Shown: one piece after another, positions 27,321 to 34,540 of the stretch
Position numbering within the stretch: the stretch's first letter is position 1
How the letters are laid out: each line of letters begins with the position of its first letter
Assembly (NCBI GenBank): GCA_946628005.1
Contig: CAMOWA010000012.1
Location: 1 to 40,275 of the forward strand
DNA from: an uncultured Caryophanales bacterium
GTDB taxonomy: Bacteria > Bacillota_I > Bacilli_A > RF39 > UBA660
DNA length: 40,275 nucleotides
Direction: 5' to 3'
Program-made: the position numbers and the translations under genes
The notes under the pieces: generated by a model
Told to the model about the DNA's origin: nothing
The model's database searches: none
What the model saw: only the letters and a program-made list of their open reading frames with translations

Positions 27321-27998
27321 TTGAGAGAAGCTAAAAAAGTTAGTTATATCATATTAATGTTAGGAATATTAATGATTTCTACTGGTATGATGATTAATAA
27401 AAATAGTAAAGATAATTATTTGAATCTAAGTCAAATTGAAGAAATTGATATAAAAAATTTATCTGCAAATACAAAAGCTATTTTCAAAGAAGAAACAAAT
27501 AATAAAAGTGAGAGTAATGATAACTTATTGTTAGAATCGATAGAGATGGAAACGGCTCCAGCTTCCGTAATAATTCCACCTAGAATAGAAGTATATGGAG
27601 GAATGACTTTAGAAGAAGTTGCTGCTCAAATAAATAAAAGTCTAAAAAACGATATAACCAATAAGGGAATGGTAATAGCATCAAAGTGTATTGAATTAGG
27701 AGTAGATCCATTTATTGCAAGTGCTATTATTTTACATGAAACAGGATGTGGGCAAAATCAATGCAGTAATATAGCAAGAAACTGTTATAACTTCGGAGGA
27801 CAAAAAGGTTCCGGATGTGGAGCTTACCAAAGATATAACTCAGTAGATGAAGGACTAGTTGGAATGATTAGCAACTTATATAGAAACTACTATGCTAGAG
27901 GATTAACTACAGTTGAGACAATTGGACCAAGATATGCTGAAAGCAATACTTGGGTAAGTAAAATTAACTGGTATGTAAATAAATTGAAAAATGCATAA
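27321..27998 (+). CDS. Secreted glucosaminidase-like (GH73) peptidoglycan hydrolase
   Basis: A 225-aa exported protein. It starts at TTG with GAGGTGA eight nt upstream. Residues 7-25 form a signal/membrane segment; a polar linker runs to about 95; the catalytic domain occupies about 105-225. In it, ASAIILHETGCGQNQCSNIARNCYNFGG holds the likely catalytic Glu (HETG) and the N.YNFGG strand seen in GH73/lysozyme-like enzymes. YNSVDEGLVGMISNLYRNYY and RYAESNTWVSKINWYVNKL complete the domain. Several Cys near the active site may form disulfides. It has its own promoter and stands upstream of the large RNA. Expected role: cutting glycan strands during growth or separation. Confidence 0.8.
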   Translation: MREAKKVSYIILMLGILMISTGMMINKNSKDNYLNLSQIEEIDIKNLSANTKAIFKEETNNKSESNDNLLLESIEMETAPASVIIPPRIEVYGGMTLEEVAAQINKSLKNDITNKGMVIASKCIELGVDPFIASAIILHETGCGQNQCSNIARNCYNFGGQKGSGCGAYQRYNSVDEGLVGMISNLYRNYYARGLTTVETIGPRYAESNTWVSKINWYVNKLKNA

Positions 27999-28045: not shown

Positions 28046-28074
28046 TTGACAAAATCATAAAAAAATGATATAAT
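28046..28074 (+). promoter_or_regulatory. Consensus promoter of the large non-coding RNA
   Basis: TTGACA (28046-28051), exactly 17 nt, TATAAT (28069-28074): a perfect sigma-A promoter, predicting a start at about 28081 and high expression. Confidence 0.9.
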
Positions 28075-28080
28075 GATAAC

Positions 28081-28709
28081 GATTGATGGCACACTATTCT
28101 AGTCAATCTCTTTATTAGGAAGACGAGCTTAAAAATTCGTTAAAGGGCACATCGATGAAACCTTTGGTGTTTGCTTCTTACGCCCAGTTTGGGGTGGATG
28201 CTGAAGATGAAGAATATTGGGCAATCCATAATGGCATATGGAATCTGTTCCAATATTTGTGGAGACCAACTCTTGTGGTAAATCTATACGGACTACTACT
28301 GATGATTTATTACGAAGTTGGATAAAACCTGTATTGTGGCGAAAGCTATGTGCAGTGTAGCCTGTCTTGAGTGAAAATTTTGGGATAGATGATCTTTTTT
28401 ACTTATTTGCGGCCACAAATAAATAAGAACTGCATCTTGAAATGATTTTTGCAAAAAAGAACTAATAATAAAGACTTGTTGAGGAAATCTCCTAGAGTGT
28501 ATTTCAATATAGGATTGCAGTGGGCACTAAGTGGTAATCAAGTCGTATGTTTCGGAGACGACATATTGATTTTTTTAAAGGGGAACCGCAAATTTGGTAA
28601 CGAGTTTGTAAAAATCAGGGAAATCCTACTTGACCTAAGACTCAAAGTTAATTATATTGAATGCCAAACAATTAAAATAGACTGAAAGTAGATTAACTAC
28701 TTTTTTTTT
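28081..28709 (+). ncRNA. ole: OLE RNA (ornate, large, extremophilic RNA)
   Basis: A stretch of about 630 nt with no credible gene, bounded by a perfect promoter and an intrinsic terminator. It is visibly richer in G and C and in complementary segments than its surroundings. The size (OLE RNAs are about 600 nt) and, above all, the gene directly downstream, which I recognise as oapA, the OLE-associated membrane protein, identify it. In known OLE complexes the RNA binds OapA at the membrane along with OapB and others, and helps cells cope with ethanol, cold and Mg2+ stress. I identify it from context and layout; I have not aligned it to the OLE covariance model. A ROOL- or GOLLD-type RNA would be the alternative. 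Confidence 0.78.
28685..28709 (+). terminator. Terminator of the large RNA
   Basis: AAAGTAG-ATTAA-CTACTTT (28685-28703) followed by Ts to 28709. Read-through would express oapA, 19 nt further on. Confidence 0.85.
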
Positions 28710-28727
28710 GAAATAATAGGTGAAAAA

Positions 28728-29318
28728 ATGAAAAAACAAAAAAGTGAATTTAAAAATTTAGTAGAGCAAACAAAAAAACGTGAAAAGATAAAAAAAGAAC
28801 AAGTCGATAAAAAATGGATATTAACGATAGTTGTTATATCATTTTCTATATCCTTTATCTTATCTTTTATAGCTAATCTAACAATACCCAACTTTAACAT
28901 TATTATTGGAGTAATCATTACACTATTTTTTATAGGATTAGGAATACTATTTGATATTGTAGGAGTTGCGGTAACAGCAGCTGATGAAAAAGTATTTCAT
29001 TCCATGGCAGCAAGAAAAGTAAAAGGGGCAAATGTTGCAGTAAAATTCAAAAAAAATGCTGATAAAGTATCAAGTTTTTGTTGTGATGTAATAGGAGATA
29101 TATGTGGAATTATTTCTGGAGCAGCCGGAACAACTATATGTGCAATTATAGTAACAAAGTTTCATACAGACCTATTAATAACAGGATTAATGATTACTGC
29201 AATTGTTTCGTCATTAACAATAGGTGGAAAAGCAATAGGAAAAAGTTTTGCAATGAATAAAAGCAATATCATACTATACGAATTTGCTAGAGTAATCTAC
29301 AATTTTTATAAAAAATAG
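28728..29318 (+). CDS. oapA: OLE RNA-associated membrane protein OapA
   Basis: A 196-aa membrane protein. After a basic, RNA-binding-like N-terminus (residues 1-28, rich in Lys and Glu) come membrane segments at about 30-50, 55-80, 123-145 and 148-168. Between them is the conserved block I associate with OapA: DIVGVAVTAADEKVFHSMAA, VKGANVAVKF, NADKVSSFCCDVIGDICGIISGAAG (about 78-128). OapA resembles the membrane part of CorB/CNNM-type Mg2+ proteins and is required to bring OLE RNA to the membrane. Its position directly after a roughly 630-nt RNA gene is the classical ole-oapA order. TAGGTGA precedes the ATG. No separate promoter is obvious, so it may depend on read-through from the RNA. Confidence 0.85.
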   Translation: MKKQKSEFKNLVEQTKKREKIKKEQVDKKWILTIVVISFSISFILSFIANLTIPNFNIIIGVIITLFFIGLGILFDIVGVAVTAADEKVFHSMAARKVKGANVAVKFKKNADKVSSFCCDVIGDICGIISGAAGTTICAIIVTKFHTDLLITGLMITAIVSSLTIGGKAIGKSFAMNKSNIILYEFARVIYNFYKK

Positions 29319-29366: not shown

Positions 29367-30077
29367 ATGAAATATCAAATAAATAATGAATTTATAACCC
29401 CTGATATTATAAGAAAATTAAAATTAATTAAAAGTGGAAAAACAGGAAAAGTATATAAATGGAAAAACAATCAAATGCTTAAAATATTTACTATAAATCA
29501 ATCTAAAGATGATATCCAAATGGATTTAGAAACAGCAGAGATTCTTTCAAAAATAAATACAAAATCCAGATATATTATTTTACCAATTGATTTAGTTTTT
29601 AATAAAAATGATTATAAAAAGAATAATTTAAAAGGATATACTAGTTTATATATTAAGAGAAAAGGAAATAGTAATATTACTAAAATACCTAAAGGAAAAT
29701 TGTTAGAAAACATTCAAGGAATAGAAGAAGATATAGAATTATTGAGTTCAAAGAATATACTATTAGATGGTCTAAATATGCAAAATACTATTTTTAATGA
29801 TAAATTATATATATCAGATCCAGTAAGATATATTAAAATGGAAGAAGAATCAGTAAGAAATATCAATATGAAGTTATTCCAACAATTATTAATAGATTTA
29901 ACAACGAGAGATTTAAAAATGATGAGAGTATCAAAACAAAAAATAGAGAGAATAGCTGAATTGCTTTGGCTAAAAGATGATGAAGTATTAAATAGTATTT
30001 ATCTAAAAGATTTATTAGATACTCCTATATATACTAATGATATAGATAATATTTTAACACTAACAAAAAAATTATAA
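29367..30077 (+). CDS. Small protein kinase-fold protein, probably inactive or atypical
   Basis: A 236-aa protein. KSGKTGKVYKWKNNQMLKIF (about 21-40) resembles a glycine-rich loop followed by the ATP-anchoring Lys. LSSKNILLDGLNMQNTIFND and LYISDPVRYI (about 130-155) sit where the catalytic loop and DFG motif should be: the Asn of xxxN and an Asp (DP for DF) are present, but the HRD aspartate is not evident. AGGAGA precedes the ATG. It lies 48 nt after oapA and 14 nt before the ABC-F gene, so it belongs to that run of genes. Role unknown; a small-molecule kinase or pseudokinase are both possible. Confidence 0.55.
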   Translation: MKYQINNEFITPDIIRKLKLIKSGKTGKVYKWKNNQMLKIFTINQSKDDIQMDLETAEILSKINTKSRYIILPIDLVFNKNDYKKNNLKGYTSLYIKRKGNSNITKIPKGKLLENIQGIEEDIELLSSKNILLDGLNMQNTIFNDKLYISDPVRYIKMEEESVRNINMKLFQQLLIDLTTRDLKMMRVSKQKIERIAELLWLKDDEVLNSIYLKDLLDTPIYTNDIDNILTLTKKL

Positions 30078-30091
30078 GAGGAGAGATTATA

Positions 30092-31681
30092 ATGATACAA
30101 GTTAATAATGTAAGTTTAAAATTTGGAAAAAGAGTCTTATTTGAAGATGTTAATATAAAATTCACAAATGGTAATTGTTATGGATTAATTGGAGCAAATG
30201 GTTCTGGGAAATCGACCTTTTTAAAATTATTAAGTGGAGAGTTGGAAACAACAACAGGAGAAATTACTATATCTAAAGGAGAAAGAATCTCAATATTAAA
30301 ACAAGATCACTATCAATATGATGATAAAAGAGTAATGGATGTTGTTATAATGGGAAACTCTAAGTTATATGAAATTATGGAAGAAAAAGAAAAAATGTAT
30401 GCTCAAACGGAATTTACAGAAGAAGATGGAATGCGTCTTGCAAATTTAGAAGCAGAATTCATGGACTTAGATGGTTGGAATGCAGAGCCTGATGCTGCAC
30501 AATTATTGAACAATCTAGGAATAAAAGAAGAATACCATTACATGCAAATGAAAGAATTACCCGTAAAATTAAGAGTAAAAGTCTTACTTGCTCAAAGCTT
30601 ATTTGGAAATCCAGATATATTATTATTAGATGAACCTACAAACTCTCTAGACTTAGAAGCAATTAGATGGTTAGAAGAATTTTTAATAAATTTTAATAAT
30701 ACCGTAATTATTGTATCCCATGATAGACACTTTTTAAATAAAGTTTGTACCCATATAGCAGATATAGATTATTCAAAAATAAAGTTATATGTTGGTAATT
30801 ACGATTTTTGGTATGAATCATCAGAACTATTACAGAAACAGATGAAAGAATCAAATAAAAAGAAAGAAGAAAAAATTAAAGAACTTCAAGCATTTATTGC
30901 CAGATTCTCCGCAAATGCATCAAAGTCTAAACAAGCAACATCTAGAAAGAAAATGTTAGAAAAAATCACCTTAGATGAAATAATTCCATCATCTAGAAAA
31001 TATCCATTTATAGAATTTAAAATTGAAAAACCAGCAGGTAAGGAAATATTAAAAGTAGAAAACTTAACAAAAATAGTAGATGGTAAAAAAATATTAGATA
31101 AAGTATCATTTACAGTCCTAAAAGGGGATAAAATTTGCTTACTTGCTAACGATGATATGGCAAAAACTATTTTATTTAATATCTTAAGTGGAAAAGAAAA
31201 ATATGATAAAGGAAAAATAGAGTGGGGAAAAACAATTATACCATCCTATCTTCCTCAAGATAACAATGAATTCTTCAATACTGATAAAAATATTATAGAA
31301 TGGATTGGACAATACTATGATATAAAAGATGAAACGATTCTTAGAGGATTTTTAGGAAGAATGCTTTTTTCAAAAGAAGATGTTTTTAAAAAAGTAAATG
31401 TTTTATCCGGTGGAGAAAAGGCAAGATGCATGTTATCAAAAATGATGTTAGAGCAACCAAATTTTCTTTTATTAGATGAACCTACCAATCACTTAGATTT
31501 AGAAAGTATTACATCTCTAAATAAAGGTTTATGTAATTTTGATGGAGAAATAATATTTACATCAAGAGACTATGAATTAAATAGTACAGTAGCAAATAGA
31601 GTAATTGAAATAAAAGAAGATGGAACAATAATAGATAGAGAAATACCATATGAAGAATATATAGAGAAGAAAGAAAAGTAA
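30092..31681 (+). CDS. ABC-F ATPase of the YkpA/YbiT group
   Basis: A 529-aa soluble twin-ATPase protein that acts on ribosomes. It lines up well with B. subtilis YkpA: NCYGLIGANGSGKSTFLKLLSG (Walker A of domain 1, about 28-49), LLLDEPTNSLDLEAIRWLEEFL (Walker B), a Lys/Glu-rich linker with KKKEEKIKELQAFIARFSA, and domain 2 with LSGGEKARCMLSKMM and LLLDEPTNHLD. The Walker A of domain 2 is degenerate (LLANDDMAKTIL), a feature of this subfamily. Unusual here is domain 1: the signature expected between MKEL and LLAQSLFG reads PVKLRVK, so LSGG is lost. GAGGAGAG precedes the ATG. Role: resolving stalled or mis-set ribosomes; antibiotic protection is not implied. Confidence 0.9.
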   Translation: MIQVNNVSLKFGKRVLFEDVNIKFTNGNCYGLIGANGSGKSTFLKLLSGELETTTGEITISKGERISILKQDHYQYDDKRVMDVVIMGNSKLYEIMEEKEKMYAQTEFTEEDGMRLANLEAEFMDLDGWNAEPDAAQLLNNLGIKEEYHYMQMKELPVKLRVKVLLAQSLFGNPDILLLDEPTNSLDLEAIRWLEEFLINFNNTVIIVSHDRHFLNKVCTHIADIDYSKIKLYVGNYDFWYESSELLQKQMKESNKKKEEKIKELQAFIARFSANASKSKQATSRKKMLEKITLDEIIPSSRKYPFIEFKIEKPAGKEILKVENLTKIVDGKKILDKVSFTVLKGDKICLLANDDMAKTILFNILSGKEKYDKGKIEWGKTIIPSYLPQDNNEFFNTDKNIIEWIGQYYDIKDETILRGFLGRMLFSKEDVFKKVNVLSGGEKARCMLSKMMLEQPNFLLLDEPTNHLDLESITSLNKGLCNFDGEIIFTSRDYELNSTVANRVIEIKEDGTIIDREIPYEEYIEKKEK

Positions 31682-33510: not shown

Positions 33511-33584
33511 GGGGCTTTAGCCAAGTGGTAAGGCGTGGGTCTGCAACACCCTGATCACCGGTTCAAATCCGGTAGGCCCCTCCA
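33511..33584 (+). tRNA. trnC: tRNA-Cys (GCA)
   Basis: A 74-nt cloverleaf: acceptor GGGGCTT with AGGCCCC (one G-T pair), D-arm AGCCAAGTGGTAAGGC, anticodon stem GGGTC/ACACCC region with anticodon GCA, T-arm CCGGTTCAAATCCGG, discriminator T, and an encoded CCA. It is the only tRNA in the window and has its own promoter and terminator. Confidence 0.96.
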
Positions 33585-33799: not shown

Positions 33800-34540
33800 T
33801 TATAAGCGTTTACTAGTAGAAATTTCTTTTGTAGTACTAACTACATTAAAACCTAAATCCTTTGCTAGTTCTATACAACTATCATTGTTTAAATGCATAC
33901 AGTAAACTTTACTTTTTAATTCTTCAGGAATTGTTTCTTGTAGAAAGCCAATATATAAATGTACATTACCAGGATAATTAGCAGTTGTAGTATCTATATA
34001 TAATTTATCAATTGGCTGACCACTATCAATTAATGCTTTAACTGTATTTATTTCTCTTGTATCACCAGAATAATACACAATACCATTTTCTGTATTAAAT
34101 AATAGTCCATAACAATCTAACTCATCACAATGACTTGTTTCCACATATCTAATATTTTTAAAAGTATTGTGTTTGTCATCAAAAGTTTTTTCATCAATAT
34201 AATTATACATTTCTTCAGTACAACCAAAACCACTTAATATTTTTTCAATATTAGGTAAATGTTTTGCATTTTCAGGTAAAATAATATTTAATGGTTTATG
34301 TAGTGTAAAAAAAGAATACATTGCTAAAGTTCCTAAACTACCAACATGATCAGAATGAGTATGTGTTATCATTATATTAATTGATTCAACACTTTCCAAT
34401 AGCCCACTTTCAACAAGTCTTTCAAATATGCTTTCTCCACAATCAATTAAAAACAATTGATTATTTTCAACAAAATATGCTGAATTATTACCTTCTTTAG
34501 GGTTAAATGCAGCACCACGTCCTAAAAAATTTAATTCCAC
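33800..34540 (-). CDS. MBL-fold metallohydrolase
   Basis: A 246-aa protein starting at GTG (34540-34538) with AAGGAGG upstream on the minus strand. It has the metallo-beta-lactamase zinc motif THTHSDHVG (about 59-67), an earlier Asp in FLIDCGES (about 31-38), VETSHCDE (about 133-140), YYSGDTRE (about 155-162) and a final metal His in VYCMHLNND (about 217-225). These suit a phosphodiesterase/RNase Z-like MBL enzyme. It lacks the flexible exosite arm of tRNase Z, and the substrate is unknown. The MFS gene upstream on the same strand ends 56 nt before it, so the two may be co-transcribed. Confidence 0.8.
   Translation of the reverse strand: MELNFLGRGAAFNPKEGNNSAYFVENNQLFLIDCGESIFERLVESGLLESVESINIMITHTHSDHVGSLGTLAMYSFFTLHKPLNIILPENAKHLPNIEKILSGFGCTEEMYNYIDEKTFDDKHNTFKNIRYVETSHCDELDCYGLLFNTENGIVYYSGDTREINTVKALIDSGQPIDKLYIDTTTANYPGNVHLYIGFLQETIPEELKSKVYCMHLNNDSCIELAKDLGFNVVSTTKEISTSKRL

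Follow-up and report, generated by a model that had tools for sequence, protein, structure and literature searches.

An OLE RNA-oapA locus in an uncultured RF39 bacterium, and natural size forms of OLE among its relatives

OLE, which in other bacteria is located at the cell membrane, ranks with the largest conserved RNAs of bacteria that still lack a known biochemical job. The locus lies within a 40-kb stretch of DNA (40,275 nucleotides (nt), hereafter the window) from an uncultured Caryophanales bacterium of the RF39 lineage (GenBank assembly GCA_946628005.1, contig CAMOWA010000012.1), for which an initial annotation had proposed an OLE RNA followed by its protein gene, oapA. The locus is very probably an OLE-OapA locus with its own promoter and terminator, which would function with no OapC and, to the extent that the assembly can show, with neither OapB nor MpfA. 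In itself it adds one more member to OLE; the taxonomic family of its source organism, sampled by 145 genomes for the OLE and OapC counts alike, is more informative.

The RNA occupies positions 28070-28683 (forward strand, as for all window features unless noted) and matches the Rfam OLE family (RF01071) over model positions 1-616, with 415.2 bits and an E-value of 9.6e-119 by cmscan against a gathering score of 50; of the 4227 Rfam families tested over the window, only OLE and one tRNA (33511-33581) exceed their thresholds. The identity suggested in the initial annotation is thus borne out by the covariance search, which matches the whole RNA. Covariance search also finds OLE in a single copy in its own genome, the OLE model matches none of 14 control genomes, and the strand folded alone is of greater stability than 20 shuffles of it (energy z -3.3). 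Aligned to the Rfam structure, the RNA runs from P4 to P9 and through the 3' domain with a large gap nowhere; because P7, P8 and P9 all align in this way, it is a full-length form rather than one of the published variants. The block is gene-free, as had been claimed, in that no gene-like open reading frame (ORF) lies between 27998 and 28728. A TTG-start ORF of 78 amino acids (aa) at 28449-28685, the only listed ORF of at least 60 aa within the RNA, was rejected as a gene, as it overlaps conserved OLE structure.

The structure alignment places several elements of known consequence. The dimer loops are conserved: the A-rich loop of the P4 hairpin (28122-28141), a dimer contact in published cryo-electron microscopy structures; the P5.1 loop GCCCA (28182-28186) and its kissing partner, the P6.1 loop; and the GGCC palindrome of the P9 apical loop (28411-28414), a loop-loop dimer contact. 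Palindrome switching in P9 has already been published (PMC12286853), and P9 therefore counts here as support only. The 5' strand of the kink-turn (k-turn) in J4a/5 (model U84 C85 ... G89 A90) falls at 28151-28158 and is overlapped by the palindrome CAUCGAUG at 28150-28157, which is taken, by sequence and position, to be the published P4a site for OapA. Although OapB was not found, the RNA retains at 28576-28613 (approximate bounds) the P12.2/P13 region, to which OapB binds in H. halodurans.

The perfect TTGACA-N17-TATAAT promoter reported earlier is indeed present at 28046-28074, a sigma-A-type promoter of the OLE gene that agrees with the consensus at 12 of 12 positions, carries TG before the -10 box and is the sole such site in the 2.3 kb scanned; at a cut-off of at least nine matches there is no excess (16 sites versus a shuffle mean of 16.5). 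Among the 96 OLE loci of the family whose upstream sequence is long enough, the best site near the OLE start scores 12 at 33 loci, 11 at 35, 10 at 16 and no more than 9 at 12, so that 11 or 12 matches are reached at 68 loci versus 7 of 880 mostly coding control stretches, taken from 200-1300 nt farther upstream. The claim of a clean terminator is reasonable, though it hinges on the rule applied: an A+U-rich intrinsic terminator in the interval between OLE and oapA (28685-28709; AAAGTAG-ATTAA-CTACTTT followed by T's) is reported by the looser of two scans but not by the stricter one, which requires three G-C pairs in the hairpin and missed it because the stem holds two. By the looser scan, terminator-like sites follow OLE at 32 of 91 family loci versus 19 of 450 control stretches, and by this rule most OLE loci therefore show no terminator. 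Judged from these signals, the window OLE looks like a transcription unit of its own, in contrast to the H. halodurans OLE cluster, which forms one polycistronic RNA (PMC12265935).

Directly downstream, oapA (28728-29318) encodes a predicted CNNM-fold membrane protein of 196 aa that contains the OapA-like motifs quoted in the annotation, and its four hydrophobic stretches agree with the four membrane spans described there. The N-terminus is basic (12 lysines or arginines in the first 29 residues), and residues 88-116 hold eight lysines or arginines versus one acidic residue (D/E). Similarity to Pfam CNNM is 20 bits for the window protein, below the 28.4 cut-off, while 23 of 34 aligned proteins match at an E-value of 0.01 or better (best, 1.9e-8). 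The predicted structure, compared by re-examination of Foldseek's top 515 chains, suggests a CNNM fold without CBS or CorC domains; no OapA model appeared among the Pfam or NCBIfam results for the window proteins, and the assignment as OapA is accordingly indirect, by its place behind OLE, its hydrophobic stretches and its CNNM similarity and fold. OLE and oapA are adjacent at 91 of 99 family loci. Seven of 80 OapA relatives have no OLE within 900 nt upstream of oapA, and in five of these OLE lies further upstream on the same contig, past inserted genes (L082, L079, L114, L123 and L137; in L082 and L123 the contig ends within OLE). The other two, L099 and L135, have oapA without an OLE match in the sequence covered, and their OLE may be elsewhere in the genome or lost; oapA of L135 lies near rpsL (Pfam).

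The annotation had proposed a genome search for oapB and oapC, and neither was found. No member of the L7Ae family (OapC, YbxF) is matched in the organism's own genome. As a caveat, rpsL, which commonly lies next to oapC, is likewise unmatched in the assembly, so the absence of OapC rests on the family: at an E-value of 0.001, the L7Ae search matches 0 of 145 family genomes, whereas of 14 known genomes searched as a control it matches 7, B. subtilis among them. OLE itself is present in 98 of the 145 (with more than 40 genomes, OLE was searched under stricter filters, which can miss weak copies). OapB was not found in the organism's own, incomplete genome, where the KOW search picks out L24, NusG and, weakly (E 0.32), a 568-aa frame; the interval between adk and rpsM, where oapB presumably lies in relatives, holds only infA- and rpmJ-like frames on the coding strand. 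MpfA was not found in this genome either; the only CNNM match is oapA, making OapA the only CNNM-type protein found. The ribosomal protein bS21 is present. Partner-poor OLE in such lineages is already known, RF39 and TANB77 being described as largely without OapB and OapC (PMC11332333), and so is the OLE-OapA system.

One relative's locus (L100:1703-9319) has OLE and oapA between rpoC and rpsL-rpsG (genes by Pfam, OLE by profile), with one 532-aa gene preceding rpsL. Since oapC/ybxF of Bacillus presumably sits at the rpoC/rpsL interval, OLE-oapA would there occupy the place of the missing partner.

The size forms of OLE were counted with one RNA per OLE-positive genome (98) plus that of G314; of these 99 RNAs one, cut by a contig end, was excluded. 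The remaining 98 comprise 70 full-length (543-618 nt), 25 short (470-541 nt) and 3 mini (378-381 nt) forms, the short ones probably lacking P7 and P8, to judge from length and motif spacing. A second OLE copy of G025 (L144:3456-3924), which sits at a contig end and is degenerate in its 5' part and in P4, was left out of the counts; it may be decaying, or a contaminant of the bin. The core TAAA of the P4 loop is nearly universal (69/70 full, 25/25 short, 3/3 mini), as is the sequence ACUAAGUGG (68/70, 23/25 and 3/3). P5.1 GCCC occurs in every full-length and short RNA (70/70 and 25/25) and P6.1 UGGC in most (60/70 and 22/25), and both are absent from the mini forms (0/3 each). The OapB-site core UUAAAGGGRAA is found in 41/70 full-length, 4/25 short and 0/3 mini RNAs.

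The new detail in this comparison concerns the k-turn, which involves nucleotides 84-85 and 144 (PMC9723947). Its 5' strand pattern is present in 64/70 full-length, 1/25 short and 0/3 mini RNAs; the OapC-binding strand is thus kept in most full-length OLEs of a family in which OLE occurs in 98 of the sampled genomes and the OapC family was matched in none. The RNA fold itself may be the reason for this retention. No covariation of the k-turn pair 84-145 is claimed, because several sequences with C84 appear, by eye, to face A145. The J4a/5 palindrome AUCGAU shows the reverse pattern: it is mostly lost (10/70 full, 0/25 short, 0/3 mini) and OapA stays. RNA elements and their protein ligands thus appear to be separable.

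The three mini-OLEs of about 380 nt are found at L145:3669-4046 (G106), L146:3663-4043 (G035) and, on the reverse strand, L219:1501-1878 (G314). P5-P8 are absent from all three, by model alignment for the first two and by alignment to these for the third. The 5' block, P4, a shortened P9 with the loop UGAUCA, and the 3' domain are retained, and the regions gone include the OapC k-turn and the bS21 and P5.1/P6.1 contacts. Each mini-OLE is the sole OLE match of its genome and has an oapA of 172-174 aa directly behind it. Similarity among the three is about 95%, and in the OapA tree (for which the bootstrap had not settled) their loci form one clade (100/100) nested in a clade of 21 short and 3 mini forms (100/96), with two further short forms placed among full-length ones; the single clade points to a single lineage spanning two genera rather than to three separate origins. 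An OLE without P5 and P6 was not found in the accessible literature, though supplements or a 2023 review may describe one.

The family seems to offer a natural deletion series, from full-length OLE through forms of 470-541 nt that probably lack P7 and P8 to forms of about 380 nt without P5-P8. With oapA adjacent at nearly all loci, the smallest working core of the RNA may be guessed from nature.

How the window locus would work can be proposed by homology. In H. halodurans the OLE-OapA ribonucleoprotein is tied to stress from cold, alcohol and Mg2+ (PMC11332333, PMC12265935), and a comparable role in stress and Mg2+ balance would be expected here. The strong promoter would yield an OLE RNA of about 610 nt ending at its own terminator, and oapA, directly after it, would probably be expressed by read-through or from a weak promoter. 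Two copies of the RNA would pair by way of the P4, P5.1/P6.1 and P9 loops, and the RNA would dock on CNNM-fold OapA in the membrane to form a ribonucleoprotein. This complex would have no need of OapC or, judging from the assembly, of OapB and MpfA.

The flanking genes had been put forward as new context for the complex, a suggestion that holds only within a subclade. A glucosaminidase-like gene (27321-27998; Pfam PF01832, 28 bits, below the 30.2-bit cut-off) precedes OLE, and oapA is followed by a kinase-fold gene (29367-30077) and an ABC-F ATPase gene (30092-31681); this order recurs in the subclade but not across OLE loci generally. The glucosaminidase-like and ABC-F genes are probably neighbours only. 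Within 3.2 kb around oapA in 80 OapA relatives, the glucosaminidase-like gene is seen near 25, ABC-F near 24 and the kinase-fold gene near 16; in the 69 relatives with more than 900 nt of downstream sequence, the first gene after oapA is the kinase-fold gene in 14 and ABC-F in 8. The neighbours are probably an inherited gene order with no functional meaning for OLE: the gene after oapA varies freely outside the subclade, and the glucosaminidase, SIR2 and ABC-F genes hold their positions together in part of the loci, like a young synteny block. What sits less easily with this account is that the kinase-fold gene lies beside oapA in six genera despite only 20-42% identity of the aligned proteins to the window protein.

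The kinase-fold protein deserves separate consideration. Its model has a mean predicted local distance difference test score (pLDDT) of 91.1, and the best 50 of 1237 Protein Data Bank matches (E ≤ 0.001) are all kinases (Foldseek probability 1.00, TM-score ~0.46-0.59). By profile, the nearest match is Bud32-type, in the catalytic-loop stretch (E 0.0033), and none of 20 members has a Pfam kinase match at an E-value of 1 or better. The kinase motifs present are a glycine-rich loop, a Lys, a loop Asn and a metal-binding Asp, whereas at the catalytic Asp position 11 of 20 aligned proteins have Asp and 9, the window protein among them, have Gly; on account of this Gly, the window protein is predicted to be a pseudokinase. 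A second homologue in the same genome (G000:C18:9002-9655) is interrupted by a stop codon.

It is unlikely, if conceivable, that the OLE complex has in this protein a lineage-specific subunit or regulator, which would act as a pseudokinase sensor on OapA or the RNA. A family profile gives 82 matches in 55 of the 145 genomes, and eight of these lie directly after oapA, in seven genomes of six genera (G000, G013, G017, G025, G082, G095 and, with two matches, G132), where about 0.15 would be expected by chance, assuming about 1100 genes per genome and two slots; G056 has a decayed piece about 340 nt after oapA. The remaining 73 matches, however, are not beside oapA, and some close relatives have ABC-F directly after it. 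The seven genomes fall within one 17-row OapA clade (98/76) in which 10 rows are not marked with the kinase gene, and common inheritance, perhaps of one order with losses, therefore suffices. Kinase-like genes recognized by the catalytic-loop motif only were seen at two further loci: a 242-aa ORF past oapA at the G106 mini-OLE locus (L145), roughly 0.57-1.3 kb downstream of the RNA, which the profile does not match, and a 206-aa ORF just before oapA in L135. A kinase beside OLE was not found in the accessible literature, though supplements or the 2023 review may report one.

A bolder combination of these threads is quite improbable as a whole, namely that the OLE complex of this family has been pared to an OLE-OapA core without OapC, with the k-turn strand of full-length copies kept for another ligand, P4a dispensable, a pseudokinase subunit added in the subclade and mini-OLE as the natural minimal form. 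Assignment of the block to a different class of large RNA, such as ROOL or GOLLD, or to an untranslated leader can be dismissed, the two former falling below their Rfam thresholds and OLE being the only large RNA to pass. Apart from these subjects, the reverse strand of the window at 33800-34540 encodes a protein of metallo-beta-lactamase fold, whose RNase Z-like and Apyc1-like matches are weak and fall below the curated cut-offs of those families.

Compared with known systems, the window locus shares with H. halodurans OLE/OapA the full-length architecture, oapA directly downstream, a CNNM-like OapA, the k-turn strand and the P13 region, and differs from it in its apparent own promoter and terminator, its other neighbours, the OapC family not found in the 145 genomes and the OapB not seen in its own genome. 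The published OLE variants belong to uncultured, reduced-genome lineages, variant 1 mostly to TANB77 and variant 2 commonly to RF39 (PMC11332333). Unlike these variants, with their shortened P7-P9 or loss of P7/P8, the window RNA retains P7, P8 and P9; the 470-541-nt OLEs of the family resemble variant 2, which lacks P7 and P8, in length and motif spacing, and the mini-OLEs depart from both variants, for neither of which the available portion of that paper describes loss of P5 and P6. The kinase-fold protein shares its predicted fold with active protein kinases but has Gly for the catalytic-loop Asp. Finally, OapA is predicted to share its transmembrane fold with the Mg2+ transporters MpfA, CorB and CNNM, and differs from them as a protein of 196 aa that lacks CBS and CorC domains and is linked to an RNA.
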